Virus record (IMG/VR): IMGVR_UViG_3300036944_001289
Coordinates: 145,283-209,282 of that record
Source: a virus
DNA: 64,000 nucleotides
Direction: 5' to 3' (one strand)
Below the pieces are notes generated by a model that was not told the origin of the DNA, made no database searches, and worked only from the letters and a program-made list of their open reading frames with translations. A program made the position numbers and the translations under genes. Shown here one piece after another: positions 4,677 to 62,278 of the stretch. Position 1 is the stretch's first letter; each line of letters begins with the position of its first letter.

Positions 4677-6308
4677 GTGTTAAAAAATCTAGTCTCTTTC
4701 TTTCCCGAAAATTATACACCCAGTAATCAGCAGCAAGCGCTCCTAGAAAAAATAGATAAAGCGTTTGAAGAAAATAAGTTTGTAATATGTAATGCACCTA
4801 CGGGTTCTGGTAAGAGTTTTTTATCTAAAACATTAGGTAATTACTCTACAGAATGTTCTTCCGAATTTAAACAGCTTATTACAAGTTATGATGCGTTTAA
4901 ACAGACATACGATGGTTCGTATGAATATGAACCTGACTGTATGGCAGAAGAACCTTTCGGTTCTTTTGTATTAACAATAACAAAATCTCTTCAAGATCAG
5001 TATCAAAAACTATTTCAAGAAGATGCTATTTTAAAAGGTAAAACCAATTATACATGTCAAGTAGATGATCAATTTGATGTAGACACCGCACCATGCTTAT
5101 TGACACCTAAATTAAAAGAGACATGTTGGCAAAAAAACATGTGCCCTTATTATAATGCGAGAAATGATATACTGACAAGTAGGTTCGGTATCTTAAATTA
5201 TAAGATGTTTCTTTCGTTGCCAGGTCATGTAAAAAGGAAGCAATTTATCATCTGTGATGAAGCTTCTGAATTGGAAGATACATTGGTTAGTCAATTTTCA
5301 GCTACGATTGACCCTGAAAAGCTTAGAATAGCAGGAGCTAAAGTAACACCTCTTATCAATCATACAGACTATAGTCAAGTTCAAAAATGGCTTAATAATA
5401 TATGCATTACGGTAAGTGAGGAAGCTGATCTATTACTTTCTAAACTCCTTTCAAAGAAGAACGATAAAAATGCTCAATCGGATAAAATTAAACTTAATTA
5501 TTTAAGAAGTATACACGGTAGTATTAAAATGATTTTAGACACATGGCACGAATGTGAATATGTAGTACAGAAAGAGGATAAGGTCGTTAAATTAACACCT
5601 CTAAAGGTAGATACTTTATCTAAACATATATTTGAACATGCTGATAAAGTGTTATTAATGTCTGCTACTATAATTGACCATAAGACGTTTGCTAAAACTC
5701 TAGGTATAACTGATTACAAGTATGTAGAGGTTGATAGTACTTTTGATCCTGCTAAAGCTCCAATCTTTATTAATACCAAGCTAAAGCTTAATCATGGCAA
5801 TCTAAAAGATAATCTACCTACGATTGCTAAACAAATACAAGCTATTTGCGATAAACATAAAAACGATAAAGGTATTATACATACACATTCGATGGCAATT
5901 ACTAGTTACTTGCAAGGTTCAATAAAAGGTAAGAGATTCCTTTTTAGATCTGAAGGTCAGAAGAATGAAGTGCTATTAACACAACATGCAGAATCTACAG
6001 AACCTACTGTTGTTGTAAGCCCATCAGTTGCATTTGGTGTTGACTTTAAAGATGATTTAGCTAGATTCCAGATAATAGTAAAAGCAGCATTTCCACCTTT
6101 AGGTGATGCAAGAATAAAGAAGTTATTTGAAATGGATAAACAATGGTACACTGATAAAATGCTTTGTAATTTTGTACAAGCATGTGGTAGAGGTGTTAGA
6201 AGTAAGGATGATCATTGTATAACGTATGTGTTAGATGCGTGTATATATGATGCTATTATTAAAAATAACCGTAATCTACCTAAGTACTTTCTCAATAGAT
6301 TCGTATAA
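4677..6308 (+). CDS. XPD/DinG-like superfamily 2 DNA helicase with Fe-S cysteines
   Basis: 543 aa with a GTG start. Motif I is APTGSGKS (residues 40-47) and the Walker B variant is IICDEASE. Motif III is LLMSATI and motif VI is QACGRGVRSKDD near residue 500. Between motifs I and II four cysteines lie in the pattern C-x13-C-x9-C-x5-C, matching the 4Fe-4S site of XPD, Rad3 and DinG helicases. It is a 5'-3' DNA helicase by family, probably for repair or replication. It is shorter than DinG and lacks a nuclease domain. Confidence 0.85.
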   Translation: MLKNLVSFFPENYTPSNQQQALLEKIDKAFEENKFVICNAPTGSGKSFLSKTLGNYSTECSSEFKQLITSYDAFKQTYDGSYEYEPDCMAEEPFGSFVLTITKSLQDQYQKLFQEDAILKGKTNYTCQVDDQFDVDTAPCLLTPKLKETCWQKNMCPYYNARNDILTSRFGILNYKMFLSLPGHVKRKQFIICDEASELEDTLVSQFSATIDPEKLRIAGAKVTPLINHTDYSQVQKWLNNICITVSEEADLLLSKLLSKKNDKNAQSDKIKLNYLRSIHGSIKMILDTWHECEYVVQKEDKVVKLTPLKVDTLSKHIFEHADKVLLMSATIIDHKTFAKTLGITDYKYVEVDSTFDPAKAPIFINTKLKLNHGNLKDNLPTIAKQIQAICDKHKNDKGIIHTHSMAITSYLQGSIKGKRFLFRSEGQKNEVLLTQHAESTEPTVVVSPSVAFGVDFKDDLARFQIIVKAAFPPLGDARIKKLFEMDKQWYTDKMLCNFVQACGRGVRSKDDHCITYVLDACIYDAIIKNNRNLPKYFLNRFV

Positions 6309-6311
6309 ATA
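6304..6311 (+). promoter_or_regulatory. late promoter TATAAATA
   Basis: Perfect T4-type late box ending 5 bases before the GTG start at 6317. It overlaps the helicase stop codon. Confidence 0.7.
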
Positions 6312-6316
6312 TATTT

Positions 6317-6880
6317 GTGAAGTTCTCTACATATTACAAATTGGATGAGTCTCTCAAGACTAAACTAAAAGCATTAGGATTAGCAGGTCTAGCTGCTTTA
6401 ACACCTTACACTAAAGCTTCAGATATGAGTGTAAATTTTCAGATGCCTGCAACTATCGCACAGTCGCAACGTAATAGGACGGCTTCCAAAACTGCGACAG
6501 ATATAGATATTGTTGCTGCTACGTTATATAAGGAAGCTAGAGGTGAAGGTAAGAAAGGTATGGAGGCTGTAAATGAGGTTATACATAATAGATCTAAAAA
6601 GAAAAAAAAATCTCTATCTCAAATATGTACTGAACCTAAGCAATTCTCATGCTGGAATAATATAGCACCTACAAAAGATGTTATAGACTCTATTGCTAAA
6701 AAAGATCCAAAAAGTTTTTCAATAGCTAAGAAAATTGCATCTGATGATTTAACAAACCATACTAAAGGTGCTGAGTATTACCATACACTAGCTGTAAAGC
6801 CAACGTGGGGACCAAAACTAAAGAAAAGCGGCTACCAAACAGTAATTATAGGTAATCACATTTTTTATTATAAAAAGTAG
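6317..6880 (+). CDS. SleB-like cell-wall hydrolase (Hydrolase_2)
   Basis: 187 aa with a GTG start set by the adjoining late promoter. Residues 60-185 carry the SleB/CwlJ pattern: AATLYKEARGEGKKGMEAVN with the catalytic Glu, then VIHNRS, CTEPKQFSCWN, and a C-terminal GNHIFYY. The family cleaves peptidoglycan glycan strands. The first 45 residues are a separate leader (MKFSTYYKLDE, then an Ala/Leu-rich segment), which looks like a capsid-targeting peptide or a weak membrane segment. It is either the endolysin or a virion-carried wall enzyme; its late promoter suits both. Confidence 0.78.
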   Translation: MKFSTYYKLDESLKTKLKALGLAGLAALTPYTKASDMSVNFQMPATIAQSQRNRTASKTATDIDIVAATLYKEARGEGKKGMEAVNEVIHNRSKKKKKSLSQICTEPKQFSCWNNIAPTKDVIDSIAKKDPKSFSIAKKIASDDLTNHTKGAEYYHTLAVKPTWGPKLKKSGYQTVIIGNHIFYYKK

Positions 6881-6881
6881 A

Positions 6882-7109
6882 CTACTTTTTCTTCTTCTTT
6901 CTAGGTAATCTGAATGTTACTGTAGATATAGATGGATTTAGTCTATCACCTTTAAATCCACTGTACGCAGAGGGTGTAGACTTATTACCAATAAGAGGGT
7001 TCACAGTACCATGATTAGGCATATTAGGAACCTTTACAGGTCTTTTTGTATCTATAGGTGCTCTAAAACCACCCTCCAATAGAAATTTAACTAATTTATT
7101 GAACCCCAT
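6882..7109 (-). CDS. small basic hypothetical protein
   Basis: 75 aa, convergent with the SleB-like gene (1-base gap). The protein is Pro/Gly/Lys-rich and ends RLPRKKKKK. It has its own perfect late promoter 5 bases upstream, which argues that it is real. The start MGFNKLVKFLLEGG resembles the capsid-targeting leader of other late genes here (LLE, then Gly). Possible DNA-binding internal head protein; inference only. Confidence 0.6.
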   Translation of the reverse strand: MGFNKLVKFLLEGGFRAPIDTKRPVKVPNMPNHGTVNPLIGNKSTPSAYSGFKGDRLNPSISTVTFRLPRKKKKK

Positions 7110-7114
7110 ATTAT

Positions 7115-7122
7115 TATTTATA
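7115..7122 (-). promoter_or_regulatory. late promoter TATAAATA
   Basis: Perfect box on the minus strand, 5 bases before the ATG at 7109. Confidence 0.7.
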
Positions 7123-7132
7123 TAATAACAGA

Positions 7133-7495
7133 ATGACTAAAACTAAAACTTTAACCTGCGTAGTTACAGGAAGTACTACTGTTTACTCAGGTGAATTCCT
7201 TGCAAAGAAAATTGAAGAGTATGGTTCTGAAGAAAACTTAGAAAAACGATATATTTGTAAAGAAGTAAAAAGCTTTCTTAAAAAGAGATATAAGATTAAA
7301 GATATTAGAAAAGTATTATCTGTGGATGATAAGATACCACTACCTGATAATGAAACTCTGGTCTTTTTAGAAATGAATTTTAATAGCAGTATTAATACTG
7401 AGAACTCAGCATCTACAACAATAACAGAATTTACATACAATAAGTCAGATAAAGATGTTGAAGAATTTATCAACAAGTATATAATTCAAAAATGA
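7133..7495 (+). CDS. hypothetical protein with small conserved phage domain
   Basis: 120 aa. The N-terminal half (LTCVVTGSTTVYSGEFL, then EEYGSEENLEKRYICKEVK) has the spacing C-x3-G, Y-GS-E, Y-C/A-K seen again in the protein at 60046-60354, so the two share a small domain. Function unknown. It overlaps the next gene by 4 bases. Confidence 0.6.
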   Translation: MTKTKTLTCVVTGSTTVYSGEFLAKKIEEYGSEENLEKRYICKEVKSFLKKRYKIKDIRKVLSVDDKIPLPDNETLVFLEMNFNSSINTENSASTTITEFTYNKSDKDVEEFINKYIIQK

Positions 7496-8013
7496 TACCT
7501 ATATCTTTAGTAGATACACCTGTTAATGTGGAGGAATTTAAAATTTTAACACCAGCAGAAACTAAGTACGCGCTCTTTTTAGGATTTATTATTCGTAATG
7601 AATATGATAACAAAAGGCTAAAAATAGCTGAAAATTTTAAGCCGGTAAAGTTTTTACATGTAAAAAGAAAAGATAATCAAATAACAGAGTGTATACCATT
7701 GTATGGTGTATTATTAACACCTAATAGTGCTATTGTAAACTTAATGAAGACAGTGCGATCACAAGAAAAAGTAAAAGAAATGCCGCTTATAACATACAGA
7801 AACATACTTTCTCAGTATAATTTTTCATGTGATAATACATATTCATTATACAGCGATATGATATACCCAATTGATTTCACAAATTTAAAATCAGTTTGCG
7901 ATGATACATTTAACGAAGATAAAAAAGTATTTCAACACCTACTATCATTAGATGAAAAACATTTTGATTTCCAATCTTTTGCATCATTGAAATTATTAAT
8001 TCTTAACATATAA
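7492..8013 (+). CDS. hypothetical protein
   Basis: 173 aa, mixed alpha/beta, no motif recognised. It is coupled to 7133-7495 by an ATGA overlap and ends 25 bases before nrdB. A late-type box lies between it and nrdB, so it is probably the last gene of an earlier transcription unit. Confidence 0.6.
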   Translation: MIPISLVDTPVNVEEFKILTPAETKYALFLGFIIRNEYDNKRLKIAENFKPVKFLHVKRKDNQITECIPLYGVLLTPNSAIVNLMKTVRSQEKVKEMPLITYRNILSQYNFSCDNTYSLYSDMIYPIDFTNLKSVCDDTFNEDKKVFQHLLSLDEKHFDFQSFASLKLLILNI

Positions 8014-8018
8014 TAGCA

Positions 8019-8026
8019 GATAAATA
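8019..8026 (+). promoter_or_regulatory. late-type promoter GATAAATA
   Basis: One mismatch from TATAAATA, 12 bases before the nrdB ATG; weaker and further away than most copies. Confidence 0.4.
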
Positions 8027-8038
8027 ATAATCTAATTT

Positions 8039-9010
8039 ATGTTATTCGAAGAGCAAATATCACGCAAACCTAACTTGTACCCTTGGACAAAGGAATTTAT
8101 CAAAGCAATGCATAACGGTTTTTGGACAGAAGATGAATTCTCATTTAAATCTGATGTACAGCAATTTAAAGTAAATTTAACTAAACAAGAACAAGATATG
8201 ATAATCAAAGTTCTATCCGCTATAGGGCAAATAGAGGTAGAAGTAAAAACATTCTGGGGAGAGCTTGGTAAGAATCTACCACACCCATCGATTAAAGATC
8301 TTGGGTTTGTTATGGCTAACACCGAAGTTATTCATAATAACGCTTATGAAAAACTTTTAACACTTTTGGGACTAGAAGATATTTTCCAAGAAAATCTCAA
8401 GCTAGACTGGATTCAAGGTAGAGTTAAGTACCTAAAAAAGCACAATCATAGATTTTACAAAGACTCTAAAAAACAATACTTATACGCTATAATTCTATTC
8501 ACATTATATGTTGAAAACGTTTCATTATTTTCTCAGTTTTATATAGTCAACTGGTTTGCAAGATTTAAAAATCTCTTAAAAGATACTGATCAACAAGTCA
8601 AATATACACGTAACGAAGAAAATATACACGCACTAGTAGGTATTAAAATAATTAACACATTGAGAGAAGAATACCCGGAACTTTTTGATAATGAACTCGA
8701 AGAAAGAATACTAAGTGAAGCACGCGAATCTATTAAGGCTGAATCAATCATAATCGATTGGATGGTAGGTGATCTACGTGAAGAAAATGTATCACCAGAT
8801 ATTCTTAAAGAGTTTATTAAAAACAGAATGAATCAATCATTATTAAACATAGGTTTTAAGAGTATATTTGATATAGATCAAGATCTACTAAGCAAAACAA
8901 CCTGGTTTGATGAAGAGTTACTTGGTAATAATATGACCGACTTTTTTCATACTCGACCTGTCGAATACAGCAAAAAAGGGCATTCATTCTCTGAATCTGA
9001 TTTATTTTAA
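8039..9010 (+). CDS. nrdB: ribonucleotide reductase class I, beta subunit
   Basis: 323 aa. Forms the diiron-tyrosyl radical for ribonucleotide reduction together with NrdA. Ligand motifs are visible: E66 in QIEVEVKTFW, then NTEVIHNNAY with E96, H99 and the radical tyrosine Y103, then E159 in YVENVSLF, and NEENIH with E194 and H197. The C-terminal tail SESDLF is the docking peptide for the alpha subunit. It is three bases before nrdA in one operon and supplies dNTPs for phage DNA synthesis. Confidence 0.95.
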   Translation: MLFEEQISRKPNLYPWTKEFIKAMHNGFWTEDEFSFKSDVQQFKVNLTKQEQDMIIKVLSAIGQIEVEVKTFWGELGKNLPHPSIKDLGFVMANTEVIHNNAYEKLLTLLGLEDIFQENLKLDWIQGRVKYLKKHNHRFYKDSKKQYLYAIILFTLYVENVSLFSQFYIVNWFARFKNLLKDTDQQVKYTRNEENIHALVGIKIINTLREEYPELFDNELEERILSEARESIKAESIIIDWMVGDLREENVSPDILKEFIKNRMNQSLLNIGFKSIFDIDQDLLSKTTWFDEELLGNNMTDFFHTRPVEYSKKGHSFSESDLF

Positions 9011-9013
9011 TTT

Positions 9014-10660
9014 ATGGAAACAATATATTGGTTAAACGAGGACTCTAGAACGTACTTGCAGCGGGGATATTTATTACCTGGAGAGACTGCAGAGAATCGT
9101 ATTAGAGATATTGCGGTTTTTGCAGAAGGTATATTACAAATACAAGGATTTGCGAATAAATTTGAAGACTATTTAAAGAAAGGTTTTTATAGCTTATCAA
9201 GCCCTATTTGGAGTAATTTTGGCAGAAAACGTGGCCTACCTATATCATGTTTTGGTTCGTACATAAACGATGACATCAATGATATTCTATTTAAAATAGG
9301 TGAGGTTGGATCAATGTCTAAATCTGGTGGAGGTACTTCCGGTTATTTCGGTAAAGTTAGATCAAGAGGTTCTAAGATCTCTTCTGGAGGTGAATCAACT
9401 GGTGTACATCATCAGTTGACTGTCTTCAACGCTATTACAAACTACATCTCACAAGGTAACGTGCGCAGAGGATCATTTGCTGCATATCTACCAATTGATC
9501 ATGGAGACTTTGATGAGTTTATAAATATAAGATCTGACGGTGATTCTATTCAGGATCTATCAATAGGTGTTTGTATCACAAATGAGTGGATGGAGGATAT
9601 GATTGCTGGCAACACCGAGAAACGTCAACGTTGGGGTAAGGTAATTAAGAAGAGATTCGAATCAGGTTACCCGTACATATTCTTTACAGATAATGCAAAT
9701 GATCAAGCTCCTAAGGTTTATAAAGATAAAGGGTTAAAAATAACTCATTCTAACTTATGCTCTGAAATTATGCTTGCAAATGGTATTGATGAATCATTTG
9801 TATGTGACCTATCATCTCTTAATCTTGAAAAATGGGATGAGTGGAAAGATACAGATGCTGTAGAAGTGCTTACATTCTTTCTGGATGCCGTAATGACTGA
9901 TTTTATTAATAAAACAGAAGGTGACCTATTTTTATCTCACGCACGTAAATTTGCTATCAATCAACGTGCACTAGGTATAGGTGTATTAGGTTGGCATACA
10001 TATTTGCAATCTAAAATGATTGCATTTGAGTCTGTTCAAGCGAAATCATTAAATGCACAAATCTGGAAAAATATAAGAACTAAAGCAGATAATGCATCGC
10101 AGAAATTGGCTGATTTATTTGGAGAACCAGAACTACTTAAAGGTTATGGACGTAGAAATACTACTACACTTGCTATCGCACCTACAACGTCGAGTTCTTT
10201 TATTTTAGGTCAAGTATCACCTTCTATAGAACCATTAAATTCAAATTACTTTGTAAAAGACTTAGCAAAAGGTAAATTTACGTTTAGGAATCCACAATTA
10301 GTAAAGCTATTAGAATCTAAAGATAAAAACAAAGAGGATATTTGGAGATCTATTCTCGTAAAAGGTGGTTCTGTACAGCATTTAGATTTCTTTACGGAAG
10401 ATGAAAAGAATGTATTTAAAACATTTGGAGAGATATCTCAAAAAGAAATTATAATACAAGCTGCTACACGCCAAAAGTACATCGACCAAGGTCAATCCCT
10501 TAATATAATGATACCACCCGATACCAAACCTAAAGATGTAAGTGAACTAACGATCTTTGCGTGGAGAGAAGGTATTAAAGCGCTTTATTATCAAAGAAGT
10601 GCTAACCCAGCTCAGGAGCTGGCGAGAAACATATTAAATTGTCAGTCCTGCCAATCATAA
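9014..10660 (+). CDS. nrdA: ribonucleotide reductase class I, alpha subunit (short form)
   Basis: 548 aa against about 750 for NrdA, because the N-terminal ATP-cone is absent: the protein starts directly with the catalytic-domain segment. Active-site residues are intact: C79 in ISCFG, N247-L-C249-S-E251 in HSNLCSEIM, C264 in SFVCDLSS, the radical-transfer pair Y525-Y526 in ALYYQRS, and the C-terminal thiol pair C543 and C546. Loss of the cone should remove overall dATP inhibition. It is the last gene of the plus-strand operon before a two-way terminator. Confidence 0.95.
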   Translation: METIYWLNEDSRTYLQRGYLLPGETAENRIRDIAVFAEGILQIQGFANKFEDYLKKGFYSLSSPIWSNFGRKRGLPISCFGSYINDDINDILFKIGEVGSMSKSGGGTSGYFGKVRSRGSKISSGGESTGVHHQLTVFNAITNYISQGNVRRGSFAAYLPIDHGDFDEFINIRSDGDSIQDLSIGVCITNEWMEDMIAGNTEKRQRWGKVIKKRFESGYPYIFFTDNANDQAPKVYKDKGLKITHSNLCSEIMLANGIDESFVCDLSSLNLEKWDEWKDTDAVEVLTFFLDAVMTDFINKTEGDLFLSHARKFAINQRALGIGVLGWHTYLQSKMIAFESVQAKSLNAQIWKNIRTKADNASQKLADLFGEPELLKGYGRRNTTTLAIAPTTSSSFILGQVSPSIEPLNSNYFVKDLAKGKFTFRNPQLVKLLESKDKNKEDIWRSILVKGGSVQHLDFFTEDEKNVFKTFGEISQKEIIIQAATRQKYIDQGQSLNIMIPPDTKPKDVSELTIFAWREGIKALYYQRSANPAQELARNILNCQSCQS

Positions 10661-10668
10661 CAATAATA

Positions 10669-10702
10669 AAAAAAAGATATCATTTAAATGATATCTTTTT
10701 TT
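10669..10702. terminator. two-way rho-independent terminator
   Basis: A perfect palindrome with A7 on the left, GATATCATTT/AAATGATATC in the middle and T7 on the right, between the convergent ends of nrdA and 10704-11063. It can stop transcription from both sides. Confidence 0.9.
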
Positions 10703-10703
10703 A

Positions 10704-11063
10704 TTATTTTTTAGAAATATTATCTTTGATATATTCTATATCTTTTTGTATCAAACCTATATCTCTTTCCATATTTATGATTTTATTATCATAAATTATC
10801 TTACCATCTTCGGTAATGATATTGCTCAATCTCTTTTCAATATTTTTTAGTACCGGTACTATGTCTCCCATCTGTCTCTCAAGATTATTAGTCTTAGATT
10901 CTACCACGACTATTCTATTTGTTAACTCTTTAAACTCGTTTTGTTTAACGTAGTTACTGTTTAACCAAACAACACATGTTGCTATAAAAAAAGTACCTAC
11001 AACTTTAACTATATTGATTGTAGTAAACAACTCTGATAATGTAGAGTTACTTGATGACGGCAT
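10704..11063 (-). CDS. membrane-anchored coiled-coil protein
   Basis: 119 aa. One hydrophobic segment near residues 18-36 (IVKVVGTFFIATCVVWL) is followed by a long charged helix with heptad-like spacing to the end. Late promoter 6 bases before the start. The N-in single-pass topology with an outer coiled coil resembles spanins or baseplate accessory proteins, but no family is recognised. Confidence 0.6.
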   Translation of the reverse strand: MPSSSNSTLSELFTTINIVKVVGTFFIATCVVWLNSNYVKQNEFKELTNRIVVVESKTNNLERQMGDIVPVLKNIEKRLSNIITEDGKIIYDNKIINMERDIGLIQKDIEYIKDNISKK

Positions 11064-11069
11064 ATAATC

Positions 11070-11077
11070 TATTTATT
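11070..11077 (-). promoter_or_regulatory. late promoter AATAAATA
   Basis: Minus-strand box 6 bases before the ATG at 11063. Confidence 0.6.
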
Positions 11078-11081
11078 AGTT

Positions 11082-14447: not shown

Positions 14448-14470
14448 TCAATATTTAAAGAAAATATTGA
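14448..14470. promoter_or_regulatory. inverted repeat at the divergent start region
   Basis: TCAATATTT and AAATATTGA are separated by 5 bases, just upstream of the minus-strand start at 14446 and 30 bases before the plus-strand start at 14500. Possible operator or hairpin in the divergent control region. Confidence 0.35.
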
Positions 14471-15303: not shown

Positions 15304-15869
15304 TAATAACATTTACAGGTACACAATCAGTAGGTAAAAGTACTTTGCTTTCAGCTCTTCAAAAAGATGAAAGATATAAAGACTGGATGTTTGAACCGGA
15401 AATAACGCGTAGTCTAAAAGAGAAGTTTGGACTGAATATAAATGAATCAGGTGATTCAATAACGCAGTTATTCGTTCTAAATTCGCATTTAGAAAATGTA
15501 GTAAAACATAAGAACAATAATGTTATTTTAGATAGATGTATAGTTGATGGGCTTGTATATACAACATATCAGTATATGACAGGTAAGATTCATACAGATG
15601 TATTTTTGCATGCAAAGTATATGTTCGATCTTATTATAGATAAATATGATATAATATTTCATATTGAGCCTGAATTTCCTGTTGTTGATGATGGTGTAAG
15701 AAGTATAGATGAAAAGTTTAGAACAACTATAGCTTCATTGATAAACGAAGCCTTACAATCTAATAGTGTAGTTAGAACTAAGATAGTAAAGTTAACAGGT
15801 ACTGTAGAAGAAAGATTGAAACAAATAGATATAGCTATTGAAAACTTAAAAGCACAAAATATAATATAA
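15300..15869 (+). CDS. P-loop kinase, AAA_28/NadR-like
   Basis: 189 aa. The Walker A is FTGTQSVGKST (residues 5-14), and a nucleotide-kinase lid-like region follows ILDRCIVDGLVYTTYQYM. The pattern matches AAA_28 proteins related to the NadR nicotinamide-riboside kinase domain; phage members are often suggested to be nucleotide kinases. It overlaps the TGT-like gene by 4 bases and lies 2 bases from queF, so it may phosphorylate a deazaguanine nucleoside or simply be a nucleotide kinase. Substrate unknown. Confidence 0.65.
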   Translation: MIITFTGTQSVGKSTLLSALQKDERYKDWMFEPEITRSLKEKFGLNINESGDSITQLFVLNSHLENVVKHKNNNVILDRCIVDGLVYTTYQYMTGKIHTDVFLHAKYMFDLIIDKYDIIFHIEPEFPVVDDGVRSIDEKFRTTIASLINEALQSNSVVRTKIVKLTGTVEERLKQIDIAIENLKAQNII

Positions 15870-16806: not shown

Positions 16807-16814
16807 AATAAATA
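16807..16814 (+). promoter_or_regulatory. late promoter AATAAATA
   Basis: Ends 5 bases before the ATG at 16820 and separates the fibre genes from the queF operon. Confidence 0.6.
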
Positions 16815-20058: not shown

Positions 20059-20065
20059 CGATAAT

Positions 20066-20073
20066 TATTTATT
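20066..20073 (-). promoter_or_regulatory. late promoter AATAAATA for gene 23
   Basis: Seven bases before the gp23 start. The 65 bases between it and the scaffold gene hold no other obvious element. Confidence 0.65.
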
Positions 20074-20138
20074 CCTTTTTTCTTCGACCCCAGGGTTTTT
20101 TACCAGGTAACTCAGGAAAAAATAGCCTAATTCTTCTC

Positions 20139-21862: not shown

Positions 21863-21870
21863 TATTTATA
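21863..21870 (-). promoter_or_regulatory. late promoter TATAAATA for gene 21
   Basis: Perfect box 7 bases before the ATG at 21855. Confidence 0.7.
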
Positions 21871-24389: not shown

Positions 24390-24397
24390 TATTTATT
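24390..24397 (-). promoter_or_regulatory. late promoter AATAAATA
   Basis: Five bases before the gp13-like ATG at 24384. Confidence 0.6.
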
Positions 24398-26193: not shown

Positions 26194-26257
26194 TTTAAAT
26201 ATTTAATATAAAAAATAGATTTATCAATTATAATAAATCTATAGATTTTAATTTATA

Positions 26258-28516: not shown

Positions 28517-28524
28517 TATTTATA
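28517..28524 (-). promoter_or_regulatory. late promoter TATAAATA for the fibre gene
   Basis: Perfect box 6 bases before the ATG at 28510. Confidence 0.7.
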
Positions 28525-30229: not shown

Positions 30230-30237
30230 TATTTACA
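30230..30237 (-). promoter_or_regulatory. late-type promoter TGTAAATA
   Basis: Five bases before the ATG at 30224; one mismatch from the consensus core. Confidence 0.5.
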
Positions 30238-30733: not shown

Positions 30734-30741
30734 AATAAATA
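30734..30741 (+). promoter_or_regulatory. late promoter AATAAATA (plus arm of a divergent pair)
   Basis: Five bases before the ATG at 30747, and the reason for choosing that start over an upstream in-frame ATG at 30684. Confidence 0.6.
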
Positions 30742-33725: not shown

Positions 33726-33733
33726 CATAAATA
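33726..33733 (+). promoter_or_regulatory. late-type promoter CATAAATA
   Basis: Five bases before the ATG at 33739, overlapping the end of the preceding gene. Confidence 0.55.
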
Positions 33734-37277: not shown

Positions 37278-37285
37278 TATTTATG
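37278..37285 (-). promoter_or_regulatory. late-type promoter CATAAATA
   Basis: Five bases before the ATG at 37272. Confidence 0.55.
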
Positions 37286-37909: not shown

Positions 37910-37917
37910 TATTTATA
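37910..37917 (-). promoter_or_regulatory. late promoter TATAAATA
   Basis: Perfect box 5 bases before the ATG at 37904. Confidence 0.7.
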
Positions 37918-40770: not shown

Positions 40771-40778
40771 TATTTATT
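40771..40778 (-). promoter_or_regulatory. late promoter AATAAATA
   Basis: Five bases before the ATG at 40765. Confidence 0.6.
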
Positions 40779-43412: not shown

Positions 43413-43420
43413 TATTTATA
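43413..43420 (-). promoter_or_regulatory. late promoter TATAAATA
   Basis: Perfect box 5 bases before the ATG at 43407, immediately after a terminator. Confidence 0.7.
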
Positions 43421-51182: not shown

Positions 51183-51190
51183 TATTTATC
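51183..51190 (-). promoter_or_regulatory. late-type promoter GATAAATA
   Basis: Five bases before the ATG at 51177; supports that start. Confidence 0.5.
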
Positions 51191-54326: not shown

Positions 54327-54332
54327 TGCGGA

Positions 54333-54709: not shown

Positions 54710-54770
54710 AAAAGTATTGGGAAAAGGAAATCGGAGGCTAACCAGTCGTTGCAGAAAATGCGGTTAAATG

Positions 54771-55105: not shown

Positions 55106-55117
55106 AAATTATTCATT

Positions 55118-55696
55118 TTAGAATGATTCAATAACCATCTTCATCCCGGCCTTAATATCTTTAAGATCTTTTACGAGCTGCTTACGGTTATAAGAGTTAT
55201 ACTTAATTGTAAAGTCTGCCAAGAACTCTGCAATGGGTCGATCTTTAAGCGATGCACTAACAATCTTTTGCCAATATTCACTTTGTTTGCATAACTCTAC
55301 AATCGAAGCTTCTGTCTTTACAGTACCATCACTATCTATAAAACACTCAATACGTTGACCTATATCGTAATACATACTATCAACGTAGTAACCTCGCATA
55401 CGATATGATAAATCACAATCTTTACTTACTAGTGTTGATAGATTATAGCCTGTACGTTTTGCAGGTGACTTATGATACCATTTATGGTATTTTTCATCGA
55501 ATTCATTTAAACTTCCATTCTTTACGAAACCAAACTCACTTGTCAAAGACACTGCAGTATCTAGCATGCACCAGAATTGCCAATGATTGTATGGTTGAGC
55601 ATTTTCCCATGCACCATCACTAAGTTGACCTTTGATTTCATTATCAAAGATAGCCTTGAGTCCTTTATTGGGTAACAAAAATAGGTGTTGTTTCAT
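55118..55696 (-). CDS. conserved phage hypothetical protein
   Basis: 192 aa from the ATG at 55696, which overlaps the previous stop (ATGA). KGQLSDGAWENAQPYNHWQF at the N-terminal part is a motif found in uncharacterised proteins of large phages; the C-terminus is helical. Function unknown. Confidence 0.6.
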   Translation of the reverse strand: MKQHLFLLPNKGLKAIFDNEIKGQLSDGAWENAQPYNHWQFWCMLDTAVSLTSEFGFVKNGSLNEFDEKYHKWYHKSPAKRTGYNLSTLVSKDCDLSYRMRGYYVDSMYYDIGQRIECFIDSDGTVKTEASIVELCKQSEYWQKIVSASLKDRPIAEFLADFTIKYNSYNRKQLVKDLKDIKAGMKMVIESF

Positions 55697-55911
55697 ATCG
55701 AAAATATTGTAGTACATTTCCCCTGGCGTAAATTGTAAACGTATTGCTTCCTGTGGTTACCTTTCTTAACTAGTACTGTACCTACATCTCCAGATACATT
55801 AGTATTAATTATATCACCATCAGTATGCATTACCGATTTAGTACATCCTGATTTGTTCTCAATTATTAAGAAAGAGTTAACAGTTCGAGGCACTATAGAA
55901 TAATCACTCAT
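55693..55911 (-). CDS. small hypothetical protein
   Basis: 72 aa from the ATG at 55911 (MSDYSIVPRTVNSFLIIENK), preferred because it overlaps the previous stop by 4 bases. Small beta-rich domain. Coupled on both sides. Confidence 0.55.
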   Translation of the reverse strand: MSDYSIVPRTVNSFLIIENKSGCTKSVMHTDGDIINTNVSGDVGTVLVKKGNHRKQYVYNLRQGKCTTIFSI

Positions 55912-56480
55912 AGTTTGTATATCTGATAAAGAATCCAATGAGCAAAGTCAATATGCTTATTAGCTAACCAAGACAACCTTAATCTTAGATGGTATCTAAT
56001 ACTATCTATAGTACGCTCAAACCATTTTCTATTATTATGCTTTATCGTTTTTTCTCTGAACTCTCTTTCTCTTTTCTTTCTTTCAGAGTTGTCACTAAAA
56101 TCAAACTTTACTAGCTTAATATCTTTAATGTTACCATCAACAATATGTGCTGAATATTCTAACCAGACATCTGAATCAGGTGTAATATCATTCCATAGGT
56201 CATAGAAGCAGATGTAGTCAGTTATATCTGCTCTCTTAACCCACTTTACTGTATCTGGTTTCTCTTGACAATATCCACCTAATAGATGTGTTTTATCTTC
56301 TACAAAGATACGTTCTGACTTTCGTTCTTGAATCTCTCCGTCTTTAAAACGATACTCTGCAAGTAAGCAATTCAAATCTTTAGTCTGATATGATCGTTCA
56401 TGAAAATTAAACGACTCAAAGTTATCTGGTTTAGGTAAGTCAACTGACTTATCAATTGTTATAGAATCAAACATTCCCAA
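55908..56480 (-). CDS. hypothetical protein (MGMFDSI type)
   Basis: 190 aa. Starts MGMFDSITID, a common opening of uncharacterised phage proteins, with LNCLLAEYRFKDGEIQERKS in the middle and a basic, aromatic C-terminus. First of three coupled genes. Confidence 0.58.
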   Translation of the reverse strand: MGMFDSITIDKSVDLPKPDNFESFNFHERSYQTKDLNCLLAEYRFKDGEIQERKSERIFVEDKTHLLGGYCQEKPDTVKWVKRADITDYICFYDLWNDITPDSDVWLEYSAHIVDGNIKDIKLVKFDFSDNSERKKREREFREKTIKHNNRKWFERTIDSIRYHLRLRLSWLANKHIDFAHWILYQIYKL

Positions 56481-56541
56481 AATCGTACCCTCCGTTTAAT
56501 GGTGAATGTTCGATAACATGTGATTTAGTATAAGTAATTAT

Positions 56542-57162
56542 ATGTCTCATTTTTATATTTTATATAAGATAGTAAATAAAGTCAATAATAAATTCTATAT
56601 AGGTGTACATAAGACTGTCGATATACACGATAACTATATGGGTTCTGGTCATCTTATAAAGGCTGCTATTGCAAAATATGGTATCGAGAATTTTACAAAA
56701 GAAATAATAAACGTATTTACAAATAGTGTAGATGCGTATAATAAAGAAAGAGAAATTATAACAAAGGAGTTATTAGAGAGCAAGCAGTGTTATAATATAA
56801 AGGAAGGTGGTCGTGGTGGGTTTGAACATATAAGACAGAAAAATCTACATAAGTGGTCTAAAGGTAAGGTAATTATACATAACCCTTTAACTGGGCAGCA
56901 AACTAAAGTATCGACTGATTTATTACAATCTTATTTGGACAAAGGATGGTTAAAGGGATTTAAGCCTGAAGCACTAAAACGGATGTCGGAGTCTGGTAAA
57001 ATTAAAATACAAACAGCAGAACATCGCAGTAAGAACTCTCAAACCAAAAAGGGTTGCAAAAAATTAATACCACCAGAACATAGTATGTATAAACAGAGAT
57101 ATAAATTTATTAAAATTGAGAAGGTAGAAGAATATATAGCTGCAGGTTGGAGACTGTTTTAG
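56542..57162 (+). CDS. GIY-YIG homing endonuclease (Seg-like)
   Basis: 206 aa. The nuclease core reads YILYKIVNKVNNKFYIGVHK (a YxI...YIG variant of GIY-YIG), then MGSGHLIKAAIAKYGIENF and NKEREII with the catalytic Glu. A C-terminal DNA-binding part with GKVIIHN and NSQTKKGCKK follows. It is the only plus-strand gene between 39 and 62 kb, inserted between minus-strand operons, as expected of a free-standing mobile endonuclease. Confidence 0.85.
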   Translation: MSHFYILYKIVNKVNNKFYIGVHKTVDIHDNYMGSGHLIKAAIAKYGIENFTKEIINVFTNSVDAYNKEREIITKELLESKQCYNIKEGGRGGFEHIRQKNLHKWSKGKVIIHNPLTGQQTKVSTDLLQSYLDKGWLKGFKPEALKRMSESGKIKIQTAEHRSKNSQTKKGCKKLIPPEHSMYKQRYKFIKIEKVEEYIAAGWRLF

Positions 57163-57221
57163 ATCAATAACGATGTTCAACCTAATCTTTAGTTAGATGT
57201 AAACATCTTTCATCACCATAA

Positions 57222-57833
57222 TTAGTCCTGTGTTAAAGCTGTATTTTGTGGATTTATATTAGAGCTCTCTGCATGCCATGTGATTGGGCTCATTACTTTA
57301 TAATTTATTTCCTTTGGCTTAACAAAAGAGAAGTCACGCCAAACAATTCTATTATTAGGTTGAGCTGCTATTTGACCAGATCCATCTCTAAGTAATAGTA
57401 CGTGATAACATTTATGTTCTGGCGGATATTGACTGAAGCCATTATCGGTATGGTCTAAAGTAAACCAGTACTGACCTTCTACAGGATTACCTTTACGCTG
57501 CTTATAAGTGCAGCACATCTCACGTATATATTCATACTGTACAGTAGAGAAGTCCCATCCGTGATTGTCCCACATCTGTAACTCATGCAGCTCATGAACT
57601 ACTTTACTCTTAGGTAGCTCCCATCTAAGCATATGTATAGGTATACGAGCCCATTGTGCACCACTCTCACACAATATGCTAAAATGTAGACATCTGCTTG
57701 GTATAGATGTAACACCAAAAATAACGCAAGGTTCATATTGTCCTTTATAAGAAGCATCCATACCATATAGAATTTGTTTATCTACAAATCCGTATAGATG
57801 CTGAGGTATTGAAGCGTTTAAACAGTTATGCAT
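57222..57833 (-). CDS. hypothetical protein
   Basis: 203 aa. HELHELQMWDNHGWDFSTVQ and EGQYWFTLDHTDNGFSQYPP, with a Trp-rich central sheet, match the style of a conserved uncharacterised phage family. The start overlaps the previous stop by one base (TAATG). Confidence 0.58.
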   Translation of the reverse strand: MHNCLNASIPQHLYGFVDKQILYGMDASYKGQYEPCVIFGVTSIPSRCLHFSILCESGAQWARIPIHMLRWELPKSKVVHELHELQMWDNHGWDFSTVQYEYIREMCCTYKQRKGNPVEGQYWFTLDHTDNGFSQYPPEHKCYHVLLLRDGSGQIAAQPNNRIVWRDFSFVKPKEINYKVMSPITWHAESSNINPQNTALTQD

Positions 57834-58063
57834 TATCTATAGGTTATCCAATCTTTAATTAGCTGTATACTAAAATCAATAGCTTCTTCGTCGGTTAGTG
57901 TATCTTTTTCATATACACGTTTAATTTCTGCCTTAAGATCTCGAAATGTATTACCATCAATCTCGATACTAACTGGCCATTCTACTGTTTCTTCAAAAGC
58001 TTTTTCAGCTTGTTTTTCTATCTCTGGGGGTGTTTCTAACTGAGTAGTTTCGGTGGGAGACAT
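57833..58063 (-). CDS. small acidic hypothetical protein
   Basis: 76 aa, Glu-rich N-terminal half and a helical end (DEEAIDFSIQLIKDWITYR). Five bases after the small membrane gene. Confidence 0.55.
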   Translation of the reverse strand: MSPTETTQLETPPEIEKQAEKAFEETVEWPVSIEIDGNTFRDLKAEIKRVYEKDTLTDEEAIDFSIQLIKDWITYR

Positions 58064-58068
58064 ATAAA

Positions 58069-58212
58069 TTATTTAGCTTGAAGACAGAGGCCAATATTGC
58101 TTATTACAAAGCCAATAAATACAAGGAAGGTAGTCTTATCACCCTTGTATAAGGAGGCAGCAGCAACACATAGCTGTATTGTAGCGATTAAAATTATTAG
58201 CTTACTGCTCAT
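58069..58212 (-). CDS. small membrane protein
   Basis: 47 aa: SKLIILIATIQLCVAAASLY and TTFLVFIGFVISNIGLCL are two hydrophobic segments. Its ATG overlaps the stop of 58212-58433 by one base. Confidence 0.55.
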   Translation of the reverse strand: MSSKLIILIATIQLCVAAASLYKGDKTTFLVFIGFVISNIGLCLQAK

Positions 58213-58433
58213 TAAATTACGCCTAGACCTTCAAACTTTAAAATGTTATCGTAGATAAACTTTACTAAACGTTGATGGTCTTTAATATTGTATTGTACTC
58301 TTACCATCATTGCTCTCTTATCTTTATCGGTTATATTACTATTACGGATATGTTCTAGTGTGATACTCTGAGCTTTTTCAAAGTCAGGCTCGTTCTGTAC
58401 TTGTTCAGCGATTGAACGTAAGAATGATTTCAT
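58212..58433 (-). CDS. small helical hypothetical protein
   Basis: 73 aa, fully helical pattern (KSFLRSIAEQVQNEPDFEKA). Overlaps the ATP-grasp gene stop by 4 bases. No family recognised. Confidence 0.55.
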   Translation of the reverse strand: MKSFLRSIAEQVQNEPDFEKAQSITLEHIRNSNITDKDKRAMMVRVQYNIKDHQRLVKFIYDNILKFEGLGVI

Positions 58434-59083
58434 AATAGATTGTATTGTTGTTCCTTATACTTTAACATATATAACCAGCCATCACTAAGCCATTTAAGGT
58501 AATCTTCTGCTTTATAAGTATCACCATACCATCCACAAGAGTAAGGATGATGCGCTTCTATAAGCTCAAGACCATTAAGTGTCATTCCAACATCTAGTGT
58601 ACCATTCCAATCCTTTGGTATTTTAATTGGTATCTTTGGAGCAGGTAGCTCTTCTTTACCTAAATACCACCAAGCGGAGATTACCTTCCCTTTAGAGATG
58701 TAATACCTCCACTCATTTTCAAACTCTACGAATTCAGAGCAAAGATGTGGACCAACCTCTACGCTACCATCAGCCATTCTACCTTGATAGCGCTTATAAC
58801 GATCAGCAGGCTTAACATGTATGCCGTTATTGGGCCATTCGTTCTGTACCCATGTATTACGTTTAACTAAAGACTTCGTAAAGTGAGGAAAGTAGTTAGG
58901 CTCAATTTTAAGATCTAAAATAGATTCGATCCAAAGAGCATTACCAAATGGTGTATAGCCTTCTGGAATGCTCTTTGGATCGCTAACTATTACATAAGGT
59001 ATCTTTTGCATAGAGCATGTAGCTACAATCGATACACCATTACGAGTATCTTTAACATCATGCTCTATTGCAAACCCTTTCAT
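58430..59083 (-). CDS. ATP-grasp domain protein (DUF4343-like)
   Basis: 217 aa. HVKPADRYKRYQGRMADGSV then CSEFVEFENEWRYYISKGKV and ISAWWYLGKE, and the end GLELIEAHHPYSCGWYGDT. This gives the metal and ATP ligands of a small ATP-grasp fold (Lys, Glu, Arg, Glu, and Asn-like end). Members form amide or similar bonds, sometimes in peptide or nucleoside modification. Substrate unknown. Overlaps its neighbours on both sides by 4 bases. Confidence 0.68.
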   Translation of the reverse strand: MKGFAIEHDVKDTRNGVSIVATCSMQKIPYVIVSDPKSIPEGYTPFGNALWIESILDLKIEPNYFPHFTKSLVKRNTWVQNEWPNNGIHVKPADRYKRYQGRMADGSVEVGPHLCSEFVEFENEWRYYISKGKVISAWWYLGKEELPAPKIPIKIPKDWNGTLDVGMTLNGLELIEAHHPYSCGWYGDTYKAEDYLKWLSDGWLYMLKYKEQQYNLL

Positions 59084-59694
59084 TGTACTAAGTTCAGACC
59101 ATATGGTGTTAGATCAACAGTCTTAGATAAGTCAAAGATATTATCATGACTATCGACTGTGTCTAACTCCATCTTAGCTTTAGCAATAGCTTTAACTAGA
59201 TGCGCCTTTTTAGCTTTGCGCAGCATATTTACAGCAATTGCTTCACATTGCTCAAACGATGGTAGTACTTTACCCCAGCGTGCAATGATATGATAGATAT
59301 CATCTGACCATTTATAACCGTTAGACTCACGCCAATTCTTTACGATACCTACTAGGATAGGATCATCGATGCGTGCTTCTGCGGGATACCAAATCTCAAA
59401 CTTGGAGTATAGTCCGCACTCTACAGCTCTGTTTGCAGCTTCTAGTACTCGTACAGGTATAGCATCTACACTATAATCTTCCATAACACACGATTTAGGG
59501 CAAAGAGTCTTATACACAACCATCTCATGTGCGTCCATCACACGGTATGGATTACGTGTAATAGTTTCACCGTTCATGGCCTTTTTCTGACCCTTGAGAC
59601 CGAGCTTTTCAATAAGCTCATTTGCTACTGCATCATTAGCCATTTGAGAGGCTAATGATGTTGAGGTTTCTACTTCAAAAGTTTCGATTTGCAT
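59080..59694 (-). CDS. hypothetical protein
   Basis: 204 aa. A short helical start, then MDAHEMVVYKTLCPKSCVME and a helical C-terminal half with KAKKAHLVKAIAKAKMELD. No catalytic motif recognised. It is translationally coupled to the ATP-grasp gene, so the two may act together. Confidence 0.58.
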   Translation of the reverse strand: MQIETFEVETSTSLASQMANDAVANELIEKLGLKGQKKAMNGETITRNPYRVMDAHEMVVYKTLCPKSCVMEDYSVDAIPVRVLEAANRAVECGLYSKFEIWYPAEARIDDPILVGIVKNWRESNGYKWSDDIYHIIARWGKVLPSFEQCEAIAVNMLRKAKKAHLVKAIAKAKMELDTVDSHDNIFDLSKTVDLTPYGLNLVQ

Positions 59695-59695
59695 A

Positions 59696-59989
59696 TTAGT
59701 CTACGACTTCAGATTGTTTGAAATAACGAACAGCTCGAGAACGCATCTCAAGAAGTTCACTCTGAACAATGCGAGGAATAACAACCTCGGGCCCAGTACC
59801 GGTATTGGCACGATTAAGAGCAATCATTTTACCCTTATCACGATTAAAACGATCTCCTTTCTTAAGAGCTGTAAAAGACCAACCAATACCAACCTTAGCA
59901 GGATCATTGGTAAGCTTAGTAGCGGCAACAACACCAACATGAGCATTGGTGCGGGGATCGTGAATGTATTTAATAATGGTATTGTTCAT
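59696..59989 (-). CDS. hypothetical protein
   Basis: 97 aa, with a beta-rich first half (HVGVVAATKLTNDPAKVGIG) and a helical end. One base before 59080-59694. Early promoter element at 60010. Confidence 0.58.
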   Translation of the reverse strand: MNNTIIKYIHDPRTNAHVGVVAATKLTNDPAKVGIGWSFTALKKGDRFNRDKGKMIALNRANTGTGPEVVIPRIVQSELLEMRSRAVRYFKQSEVVD

Positions 59990-60009
59990 AGCGAGTTGAT
60001 TTTATTTTT

Positions 60010-60014
60010 GTTCC
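60010..60014 (-). promoter_or_regulatory. early promoter element GGAAC
   Basis: GGAACAAAAATAAAATC, about 20 bases before the ATG at 59989. Confidence 0.45.
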
Positions 60015-60045
60015 GGTTGTTGATTTTATTCTACTGAAAAATTCG

Positions 60046-60354
60046 TTACTTATCGTAATTTGAATACACTGTGCAGGTTTGCACATCTCCATCAATAGTC
60101 TTACCTACCACAGTAACACTAGATGGTTCTGGTTTGATATCATTATAACTAATTTTAGCAGCAGGTTCTACTTTAAAGGTAGGGGTAGTAGCAGGTTCTT
60201 TCTTCTTTGCACCTTTTGCAGTGTAATTTTTAAGAAAGCTCTCTAGTGATCCGTGCTTAGTTATAAGCAGATCAATGTAAGGACGATGATAAAGCTTTTG
60301 CTTACGTCCCGATATATTACAAGTGACAATCAGAGGTGTGTTATATTCGTTCAC
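60046..60354 (-). CDS. hypothetical protein with the conserved small phage domain
   Basis: 102 aa with a GTG start. VTCNISGRKQKLYHRPYIDL then KHGSLESFLKNYTAKGAKK repeats the C-x3-G ... GS-E ... Y pattern of 7133-7495. The rest is a Pro/Thr-rich linker and a short strand pair. Early promoter at 60371. Confidence 0.55.
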   Translation of the reverse strand: MNEYNTPLIVTCNISGRKQKLYHRPYIDLLITKHGSLESFLKNYTAKGAKKKEPATTPTFKVEPAAKISYNDIKPEPSSVTVVGKTIDGDVQTCTVYSNYDK

Positions 60355-60370
60355 ACCTTATTGTATGGTT

Positions 60371-60375
60371 GTTCC
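60371..60375 (-). promoter_or_regulatory. early promoter element GGAAC
   Basis: GGAACAACCATACAAT before the GTG at 60354. Confidence 0.4.
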
Positions 60376-60380
60376 GGGTG

Positions 60381-60635
60381 TTACTTCTTTTTGATAGAAG
60401 GTTTGCGGCCTTTTTTCTTGGTTAGTACTACAGGCTCTAGAAGAACAGTTGTAGTTACTTCTTTATCAAGATATTTTTTAGGTAGCTTTTGATCTTGAGC
60501 CTTCTTTAGGATAGGGTCAAGCTGAATAGTTGTATTGATATTCTTATCATTATTGTATGAATAGAAATAAGTCTCTTGCTTTTGAGTAGTAAATAATGAT
60601 TTGAATAATTTGATAATAGATTTAATAATGGCCAT
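60381..60635 (-). CDS. small basic hypothetical protein
   Basis: 84 aa: MAIIKSIIKLFKSLFTTQKQ then a linker and a basic end (KKKGRKPSIKKK) typical of nucleic-acid binding tails. A late box 6 bases upstream indicates late expression. Confidence 0.55.
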   Translation of the reverse strand: MAIIKSIIKLFKSLFTTQKQETYFYSYNNDKNINTTIQLDPILKKAQDQKLPKKYLDKEVTTTVLLEPVVLTKKKGRKPSIKKK

Positions 60636-60641
60636 ATAGTA

Positions 60642-60649
60642 TATTTATT
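60642..60649 (-). promoter_or_regulatory. late promoter AATAAATA
   Basis: Six bases before the ATG at 60635. A GGAAC element lies just beyond it at 60662, so both promoter classes may serve this gene. Confidence 0.5.
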
Positions 60650-61121
60650 TATTTTTATTTTGTTCCCAAGGAGTGTAACTATTTGCTGCGGCTTCTTCAG
60701 GGCATAATACCTTAACCCAACCACCTCTTATATGTAGTTTACCAGGCTTACCAGTCTTTTCGCAAGTAATTAGTGACATATAGTGAGCCATTTGCTCACA
60801 GCCAAAAAGAAATTGTTTAGCTTTATCTACGTGTTTAATGTATTGATTTATATCAATATCATGTAGCTTAGTCCATTTATCATCGTAAGATAAATTGTAA
60901 TGTATTCTAATAGTACCAAATTTTTGCTTTACGCTAGTGAGCTCGATATTTGGCATATCGAGCGTTACACTTTCTTTAACATAAAAGCGTGTAGATTTTG
61001 TTGCTAAACAAAAAGCATGAACGATTTGATACCATCCATCTCCACACTGACAGCCATACTCAAGATTTGCAAATAGCTCTGGAAACTCTTCCTTTAACTT
61101 ATTATACACTTCAGGTGTCAT
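60645..61121 (-). CDS. conserved phage zinc-binding hypothetical protein
   Basis: 158 aa. YGCQCGDGWYQIVHAFCLAT, VKQKFGTIRIHYNLS and the end SLITCEKTGKPGKLHIRGGW-VKVLC follow a widespread phage family pattern (CxCGDGW; KxKFGT(L/I)R; TCE-x-(C/T)G). Cys pairs suggest a zinc site. Function unknown. Starts 1 base after the HAD gene. Confidence 0.65.
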   Translation of the reverse strand: MTPEVYNKLKEEFPELFANLEYGCQCGDGWYQIVHAFCLATKSTRFYVKESVTLDMPNIELTSVKQKFGTIRIHYNLSYDDKWTKLHDIDINQYIKHVDKAKQFLFGCEQMAHYMSLITCEKTGKPGKLHIRGGWVKVLCPEEAAANSYTPWEQNKNK

Positions 61122-61122
61122 A

Positions 61123-61674
61123 TTACTTACACATTAGGTTAAAACCTTCTTCGATCTTACTGACAAGATCATTTATTACATTCTCTGTTAACTCGTCTTT
61201 ATAATGACCATAATAGTCTTTAATCTTTACATAGTGAGCTTTACCAAATGTTTGTAAATAACTTATCTTATCACGTGCGTTAGTAAAACCTGGATGCTGA
61301 TTATCTACAAGAACAGAGTAACAAGGCTCATCAGTAAACTTATGAGATCTTGGTGTTTTCATATATAATGCATGCCATAGATCTCTACCAATAATTTGAT
61401 TCTGAGTAAAACCTAGATTGAATGCATCATTCATCCCTTGACCATACTCTGATGTAGCTGCAGTGAGCATATATACATTTGGATATAATCGCCTCAAAGT
61501 TTTAAGAAACTCGTGCGCATTTGGGCGAAGTCTTACCCCATAGCTTTCAGTTGGTTGCATATCCCAACCTCCGGCATCTAGAGTAAAATCTACACGCACT
61601 CTATCCTTACCGAAGTTATTCCATTCAGCATGGATTAGCGTTTCATCTAAATCTAAAAATAAGAACTTATTCAT
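61123..61674 (-). CDS. HAD-superfamily phosphatase (FCP1/NIF-like)
   Basis: 183 aa. FLFLDLDETLIHAEW holds the DxDxT nucleophile motif (D8-D10), RLRPNAHEFLKTLRRLYPNV and MLTAATSEYGQGMNDAF motif II, and SVLVDNQHPGF the C-terminal Asp. This is the pattern of FCP1-type protein or small-molecule phosphatases. A 5'-3' end-repair role with the RNA ligase is possible but not indicated by motifs. Confidence 0.75.
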   Translation of the reverse strand: MNKFLFLDLDETLIHAEWNNFGKDRVRVDFTLDAGGWDMQPTESYGVRLRPNAHEFLKTLRRLYPNVYMLTAATSEYGQGMNDAFNLGFTQNQIIGRDLWHALYMKTPRSHKFTDEPCYSVLVDNQHPGFTNARDKISYLQTFGKAHYVKIKDYYGHYKDELTENVINDLVSKIEEGFNLMCK

Positions 61675-61777
61675 TTGTGTTTACTGTTTTGGCTATCTCT
61701 TCCAAAAGGGTTTGTTTTTCTTCAAATTCTTCTGGTAGAAGCATATAAAAGTCTATGGCTTTTTCTAGAGAGCTCAT
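61667..61777 (-). CDS. small acidic helical peptide
   Basis: 36 aa from the ATG at 61777 (MSSLEKAIDFYMLLPEEFEE), chosen because the early promoter at 61796 lies in the longer frame. Overlaps the HAD start by 8 bases. Confidence 0.5.
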   Translation of the reverse strand: MSSLEKAIDFYMLLPEEFEEKQTLLEEIAKTVNTNE

Positions 61778-61795
61778 AAATCTATTTTGTTTTTG

Positions 61796-61800
61796 TTCCT
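61796..61800 (-). promoter_or_regulatory. early promoter element GGAAC
   Basis: GGAACAAAAACAAAATAG, about 20 bases before the ATG at 61777. Confidence 0.45.
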
Positions 61801-62264
61801 TAATGTAAAGGTGTGAGATGTTGCTCTGAAACGACGTAACAATCAGCGAATCTTTCATCTTCAAGCATGTTTAAAGTAAAATTTTCTAGTGTTATTGCTC
61901 CTACTAATAATATTTTGCTAATATTCTTAGCATCTACTGCAGCTAATACTAGTTGTTTAATACCTATCTTTTTATATTTCTCTAAGTCTTTCTTAGATAC
62001 TTTTAAAAGTTTATTAGGACCAGTCCAAGTCACCGTTTTAACTTGCGTGTTATCTGGAAAATCTATACCACCGTCACCTTTTACTGATTCGTATATCGTT
62101 AGATCCATTGGAAGGCCTGAGTATTTACTATAGGCCATTTCACCAAGATTACCGACTATAAAATTTTCTAGATTGATCTTCTGTTTGGAAGCGTGTGAAT
62201 ACTTCTTTTTAAATGCGTTAGATAAACAGATATTAAGTTCTTCCGCAGTTAAGATAAACTCCAT
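61800..62264 (-). CDS. PD-(D/E)xK-like nuclease-fold protein
   Basis: 154 aa. FIVGNLGEMAYSKYSGLPMD gives a conserved Glu, and GDGGIDFPDNTQVKTVTW carries the D-x(n)-Q-x-K core of the restriction-like nuclease fold. Such phage proteins often carry unknown nuclease or repair activity. Late promoter 6 bases upstream. Confidence 0.6.
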   Translation of the reverse strand: MEFILTAEELNICLSNAFKKKYSHASKQKINLENFIVGNLGEMAYSKYSGLPMDLTIYESVKGDGGIDFPDNTQVKTVTWTGPNKLLKVSKKDLEKYKKIGIKQLVLAAVDAKNISKILLVGAITLENFTLNMLEDERFADCYVVSEQHLTPLH

Positions 62265-62270
62265 CTACTA

Positions 62271-62278
62271 TATTTATA
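62271..62278 (-). promoter_or_regulatory. late promoter TATAAATA
   Basis: Perfect box 6 bases before the ATG at 62264. Confidence 0.65.

Follow-up and report, generated by a model that had tools for sequence, protein, structure and literature searches.

Promoters placed directly before start codons predict leaderless early and late mRNAs in an uncultured T4-type phage

The 64-kb stretch of viral DNA analysed here (the window) contains copies of an A+T-rich element resembling the late promoter of phage T4, many of which end only a few bases before a start codon. This position raises the question of whether the RNAs of the phage begin at the start codon itself. The first base of the T4 late box is numbered -13, and the box is located one helical turn upstream of the transcription start. 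Because the T4 box spans positions -13 to -6, a gap of 5 nt between the box and the start codon places the predicted +1 on the A of ATG. A preliminary description of the window had used this geometry to propose that the late mRNAs are leaderless.

The virus is uncultured, and its 209,282-bp record has a low G+C content of about 33%. The window covers the final 64 kb of this record and contains the T4-type head genes gp23, gp22, and gp21, those of the portal and adaptor, and genes for ribonucleotide reductase and endolysin. The gp23 major capsid protein shares no more than about 35% identity with its counterparts in cultured T4-type phages, and a megablast search of 24 kb against phage records gave no match. 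Far-T4 phages are an uncultured aquatic T4-type lineage defined by gp23 (Roux 2015, PMC4360716; Tominaga 2020, PMC7198788), a description that fits the present phage equally. Because of the divergence of its gp23 and the definition in PMC4360716, we infer that the phage belongs among the Far-T4-like phages. No promoter analysis was found by term search in PMC4360716 or PMC7198788. The relatives used for comparison include 80 environmental contigs with major capsid proteins 70-82% identical to that of the phage.

Genes were called across the whole record by a coding-potential caller that is blind to upstream motifs, which resulted in 297 genes with computed starts, 296 of which were scored. In 45 of the 296 genes, exactly 5 nt separate the end of the TAAATA core from the start codon, compared with a mean of 1.3 and a maximum of 6 in 300 dinucleotide shuffles. 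The core was picked after the data had been seen, and 7- and 8-mers show the same peak. ATAAATA occupies this position in 29 genes (shuffle mean 0.6, maximum 3). The gap-5 box precedes 42 of 282 start ATGs, but only 9 of the 6871 ATGs at which no gene starts (odds ratio 133, p 1e-51). The distance count over the whole genome thus peaks at 5 nt and boxes are rare at ATGs that do not start genes, in agreement with the earlier claim that the arrangement is not due to chance. Within the window, 12 genes have a gap of exactly 5 nt and 21 have gaps of 5-7 nt, close to the twelve and 19 counted previously. The GTG at 6317, over which the caller chose the TTG at 6341, adds one to each number. The core ends exactly 5 nt upstream of all eleven start codons that had been listed as examples.

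Most boxes deviate from perfect TATAAATA and read AATAAATA, CATAAATA, or TTAAATA. Boxes of the TATAAATA type end 5 nt before GTG 6317 of the endolysin gene (phrog_938; box 6304-6311, +) and before ATGs 7109 (7115-7122, -), 37904 (37910-37917, -), and 43407 (43413-43420, -); 6 nt before ATG 28510 of a tail protein (28517-28524, -) and ATG 62264 (62271-62278, -); and 7 nt before ATG 21855 of the gp21 protease (21863-21870, -). The AATAAATA boxes end 5 nt before ATGs 16820 (16807-16814, +), 30747 (30734-30741, +), 40765 (40771-40778, -), and 24384, the last belonging to head-tail adaptor Ad2 (24390-24397, -), and 7 nt before ATG 20058 of the major capsid protein gp23 (20066-20073, -). A 5-nt gap separates the CATAAATA boxes from ATGs 33739 (33726-33733, +) and 37272 (37278-37285, -), and the GATAAATA box from ATG 51177 (51183-51190, -). 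Variants with a TTAAATA core are positioned 5 nt before ATG 14446 (14452-14459, -) and 6 nt before ATG 26193 of the portal protein (26200-26207, -), and one with a GTAAATA core 5 nt before ATG 30224 (30230-30237, -). Gaps of 6-9 nt occur in about a third of the boxed genes, for which leaders of 1-4 nt, not zero, are predicted.

Only 5 nt remain between the late box and the start codon, and they contain no Shine-Dalgarno sequence. The earlier observation that these genes lack Shine-Dalgarno sequences is correct, but the lack is genome-wide: AGGAGG, GGAGG, and AGGAG are each present in the Shine-Dalgarno window of 0-3 of the 296 genes. It therefore does not discriminate boxed genes from others and is not specific evidence. 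An initiator would be expected to favour thymine at -1, and this base is more frequent there in boxed genes (0.73 and 0.78 versus 0.50 and 0.51; p 0.005 and 2e-7), which show no such excess of adenine at -3.

The late boxes are specific to a class of genes. With gaps of 4-9 nt they precede 10 of 15 virion genes and none of 20 replication and nucleotide genes (p 1.6e-5), whereas gaps of 4-30 nt include 13 of the 15 and one of the 20, respectively. Boxes are present at 53% of divergent genes but at only 1 of 88 overlapping operon-internal genes, although the coding constraint on the overlapped sequence may account for part of the latter low count. The record itself encodes a late sigma factor of the gp55 family (phrog_234, E 8e-28), 38% identical to gp55 of phages P-RSM4 and HTVC008M. 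All five large relatives and T4 have this gene as well; it was not found in RM378, in which the 1-50 kb stretch is also without late boxes. The genome contains gp44 and a gene for a conserved 242-aa protein (L007:2535-3263, -). The AF2 model of this protein has a pLDDT of 87.6 and PCNA as its best PDB match (E 1e-12). The fold identifies it as a putative sliding clamp of the gp45/PCNA type; the gp45 sequence profile matches it weakly, and the Pfam DNA_PPF profile does not match it, though this profile likewise gave nothing in control genomes. The phage thus has the hallmarks of T4-type late promoters: an 8-bp TATAAATA-like box at virion and not early genes, gp55, and a candidate gp45-type clamp.

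The genes without a late box have promoter-like sequences that are anchored in the same manner. In three genomes, 16, 17, and 13 such genes have a TTGA whose end is exactly 30 nt upstream of the start codon, compared with shuffle means of 1.2-1.5, and 9, 18, and 13 genes have TTGnnn-N16-TAnnnT with a gap of exactly 6 nt. Examples in the window, each with the -10 element ending 6 nt before the ATG, are the early sigma70-like promoter TTGAAC-N16-TATAAT at 7099-7126 (+, ATG 7133) and the early-type promoters TTGAAG-N16-TATAAT at 7458-7485 (+, ATG 7492) and TTGAAA-N16-TATAAT at 15838-15865 (+, ATG 15872, GTP cyclohydrolase). The canonical -10 hexamer spans -12 to -7, and therefore the 6-nt gap also places the predicted +1 on the A of ATG. 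The sigma70-like and gp55-like gaps differ by one base, as the geometries of the two boxes predict. The promoter at 7099-7126 and the late box of the divergently oriented gene 7109 (7115-7122, -) overlap, and early and late use of this shared site may be mutually exclusive.

A further motif of this phage, GGAAC-N5-TAnnAT, probably represents a middle class. Its spacing is 5 in 19 upstream cases, compared with 0-5 cases at any other spacing tested. The motif precedes about 25 early or middle genes, among them those of DNA polymerase and ligase, mostly with a gap of 5-9 nt, and is located in the window at 41659-62000 (-) and in loci L002, L003, L004, L006, and L007. Two copies with TACAAT end 5 nt before ATG 58433 (58439-58454, -) and GTG 60354 (60360-60375, -). 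The class was not seen in the distant relatives G001 and G002. An abutting promoter of any class precedes 71%, 67%, and 59% of divergent genes in three genomes; the corresponding figures are 4-5% for shuffles and 5-10% for overlapping genes.

The earlier reading of the late genes is thus supported by the sequence, in which the identity, position, virion-gene specificity, and conservation of the motif, as well as the gp55 and clamp genes, are apparent. However, it was too narrow, since the early promoters are anchored alike. We consider it highly probable that the elements directly in front of genes in this phage and its clade are promoters and not ribosome-binding sites, and that RNA synthesis starts at or near the start codon. 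With positions counted from the A of the start codon, the late genes would be read from the gp55-type box at -13 to -6, the early genes from -35 and -10 elements of the sigma70 type, the latter at -12 to -7, and genes of the GGAAC class from a motif anchored within a few bases of the same position. Directed by phage gp55 (late) or a host sigma factor (early), RNA polymerase would begin the RNA at the start codon or a few bases from it, and ribosomes would load on the 5'-terminal AUG. Genes further down an operon may be translated by termination-reinitiation across overlapping stop and start codons; 88 of 296 genes overlap the previous stop codon, which we infer to suit translational coupling. 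Where a boxed gene is part of a cluster, transcription from a promoter further upstream may also supply it with leadered mRNA.

The gap-5 peak could be suspected to be an artefact of the A+T-rich upstream regions of this low-G+C genome, or of the choice of the nearest ATG as the start. The dinucleotide shuffles and the non-start ATGs refute this explanation, the gene caller takes no upstream signals, and the starts of gp21 and gp20 are backed by alignment of the N-termini across relatives, which leaves it virtually no probability. Another reading, in which TAAATA is a translation-initiation signal in leadered mRNA, A/T-rich and Kozak-like as in Flavobacterium, would agree with the fixed distance to the start codon and the genome-wide lack of Shine-Dalgarno sequences, and F. 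johnsoniae uses upstream adenines at -3, -6, -12, and -13. However, the same ribosomes translate virion genes, which have the element, and replication genes, which do not; the element is nearly absent from overlapping operon genes; boxed genes show no preference for A at -3; and the element matches the known box of gp55, which the phage encodes. Nor would a ribosome signal explain the different, bipartite motif of the early genes, which reaches to -34 and has a 16-nt spacer. Two promoter types that differ in sequence and spacing but predict the same start favour leaderless transcription, and a translation signal appears quite improbable.

We assign a similarly low probability to the possibility that the late promoters are real but functional late mRNAs have leaders of at least 10 nt, owing to spacing unlike that of T4 or to dominant upstream promoters. 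Many boxed genes are in same-strand clusters and could be read from upstream, and gp22, as well as gp23 in relatives, has a leader-like arrangement. On the other hand, a start further downstream than the T4 spacing would remove the start codon, and -10 elements are not known to direct initiation at positions much further upstream. The frequency of abutting promoters at divergent genes also argues against such leaders, and the early sigma70-type promoters, with textbook spacing, indicate the same base.

Apparent exceptions are gp22 and, in relatives, gp23, whose products are abundant head proteins in T4. The gp22 box is 21-26 nt upstream of the start codon. In relatives, gp23 has no adjacent box and is preceded instead by a conserved leader with a GAGG...CCUGA-type hairpin, a second variable hairpin, GGUCGA, and AAGGA(G), which is found in nearly all of the 80 relatives. 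From their sequences, gp22, and gp23 in relatives, look like leadered exceptions to the abutting rule. In the window, the gp22-gp23 intergenic leader (20059-20130, -) contains GGGGTCGA and AAAGGA. Some stem pairs of the gp23 leader change on both sides between relatives (loci L010-L089), and no Rfam family was found for it.

The abutting arrangement is conserved in the clade. The TAAATA core is present at a gap of 5 nt in 111 of 694 genes in 47 related loci, and the distant relatives G001 and G002 (217-230 kb) show the same peak. The start codons of gp21 and gp20 align across relatives, in which the position of the box is kept while the sequence before it diverges. Since the relatives are non-independent samples, these counts show conservation and do not add statistical weight. 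Late transcription in T4 involves gp55, gp45, and the co-activator gp33, a short and divergent protein. T4 has, like the present phage, an 8-bp TATAAATA box before late virion genes, an A+T-rich downstream segment, a gp55-family sigma factor, and a sliding clamp (Geiduschek and Kassavetis 2010, PMC2988020). However, the commonest distance from box to start codon in T4 is 27-28 nt, which leaves a leader with a Shine-Dalgarno sequence at 5-7 nt, whereas here the mode is 5 nt and this sequence is missing. Cyanophage P-RSM4 and pelagiphage HTVC008M have no box peak at gap 5, and the KVP40 stretch used for comparison is outside the late region of that phage. Among the phages compared, the position of the box at the start codon appears peculiar to this lineage.

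Leaderless transcripts have been described elsewhere. Thermus phage phiYS40 has leaderless middle and late mRNAs (Sevostyanova 2007, as described in PMC3594737), the state predicted here, but it is not a T4-type phage and uses no gp55, and in the present phage leaderlessness is predicted from sequence for both early and late genes. A -10 motif 6-7 bp from the open reading frame in Deinococcus (PMC12340547) and a -10-like element near the frame in TA-led genes (Zheng 2011, PMC3160421) are taken as leaderless signatures. The arrangement here is similar, with a positionally aggregated -10-like signal about 10-12 bp upstream and no Shine-Dalgarno sequence in between; however, those are cellular genes served by the housekeeping sigma factor, whereas the late class here has a phage sigma factor, an 8-bp box, and a 5-nt gap. 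The late promoters of phiKZ also have a short motif at the transcription start (T-3ATG+1, PMC7598289), but they are read by a phage multisubunit RNA polymerase without a -10 box, machinery unrelated to that of the present phage. Leaderless promoters of the gp55 type, and the combination of leaderless early and late transcription, look new on this comparison.

The early promoters also bear on the host. A Bacteroidota-type promoter (TTTG or TAnnTTTG) was rejected: TAnnTTTG is not enriched between genes (6.4 per 10 kb of intergenic versus 7.2 of coding sequence), and the early genes use TTG-N16-TAnnnT. Because the Bacteroidota -7 element is not enriched, a Bacteroidota host was not considered proven by the lack of Shine-Dalgarno sequences. 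A Bacteroidetes host has been proposed for one marine Far-T4 genome (PMC7198788); sigma70-like, non-Bacteroidota early promoters sit badly with this proposal, which concerns a different genome. A search of GTDB genomes with gp23 found no relative, and one with RmlA gave a single distant match, in Elusimicrobiaceae. The phage carries nucleotide-sugar genes like an rmlA/rmlB/rmlD set (L006:17470-19349 and L007:958-1785). Relatives G001, G003, and G005 encode a homologue of ribosomal protein S21 (G002 is below the cut-off; loci L125 and L126), and none was found in the record of the window.

It is conceivable, with a probability somewhat short of even, that the whole T4-type clade has dropped the 5' leader, with host-sigma early and gp55 late promoters whose position alone sets the translation start, downstream genes translated by coupling, and the capsid gene keeping its conserved, structured, Shine-Dalgarno-like leader as a high-output device. 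If mapped transcripts agree with the predicted starts, a common aquatic T4-type lineage would run early and late expression on leaderless mRNA with two different sigma factors. The T4 late promoter could then fuse directly to a start codon, and the distance between promoter and start codon would be a simple genomic test for leaderless phages. Host assignment is affected by the early promoters being sigma70-like and not Bacteroidota-like, and leaderless transcription would predict hosts with ribosomes that accept leaderless mRNA.
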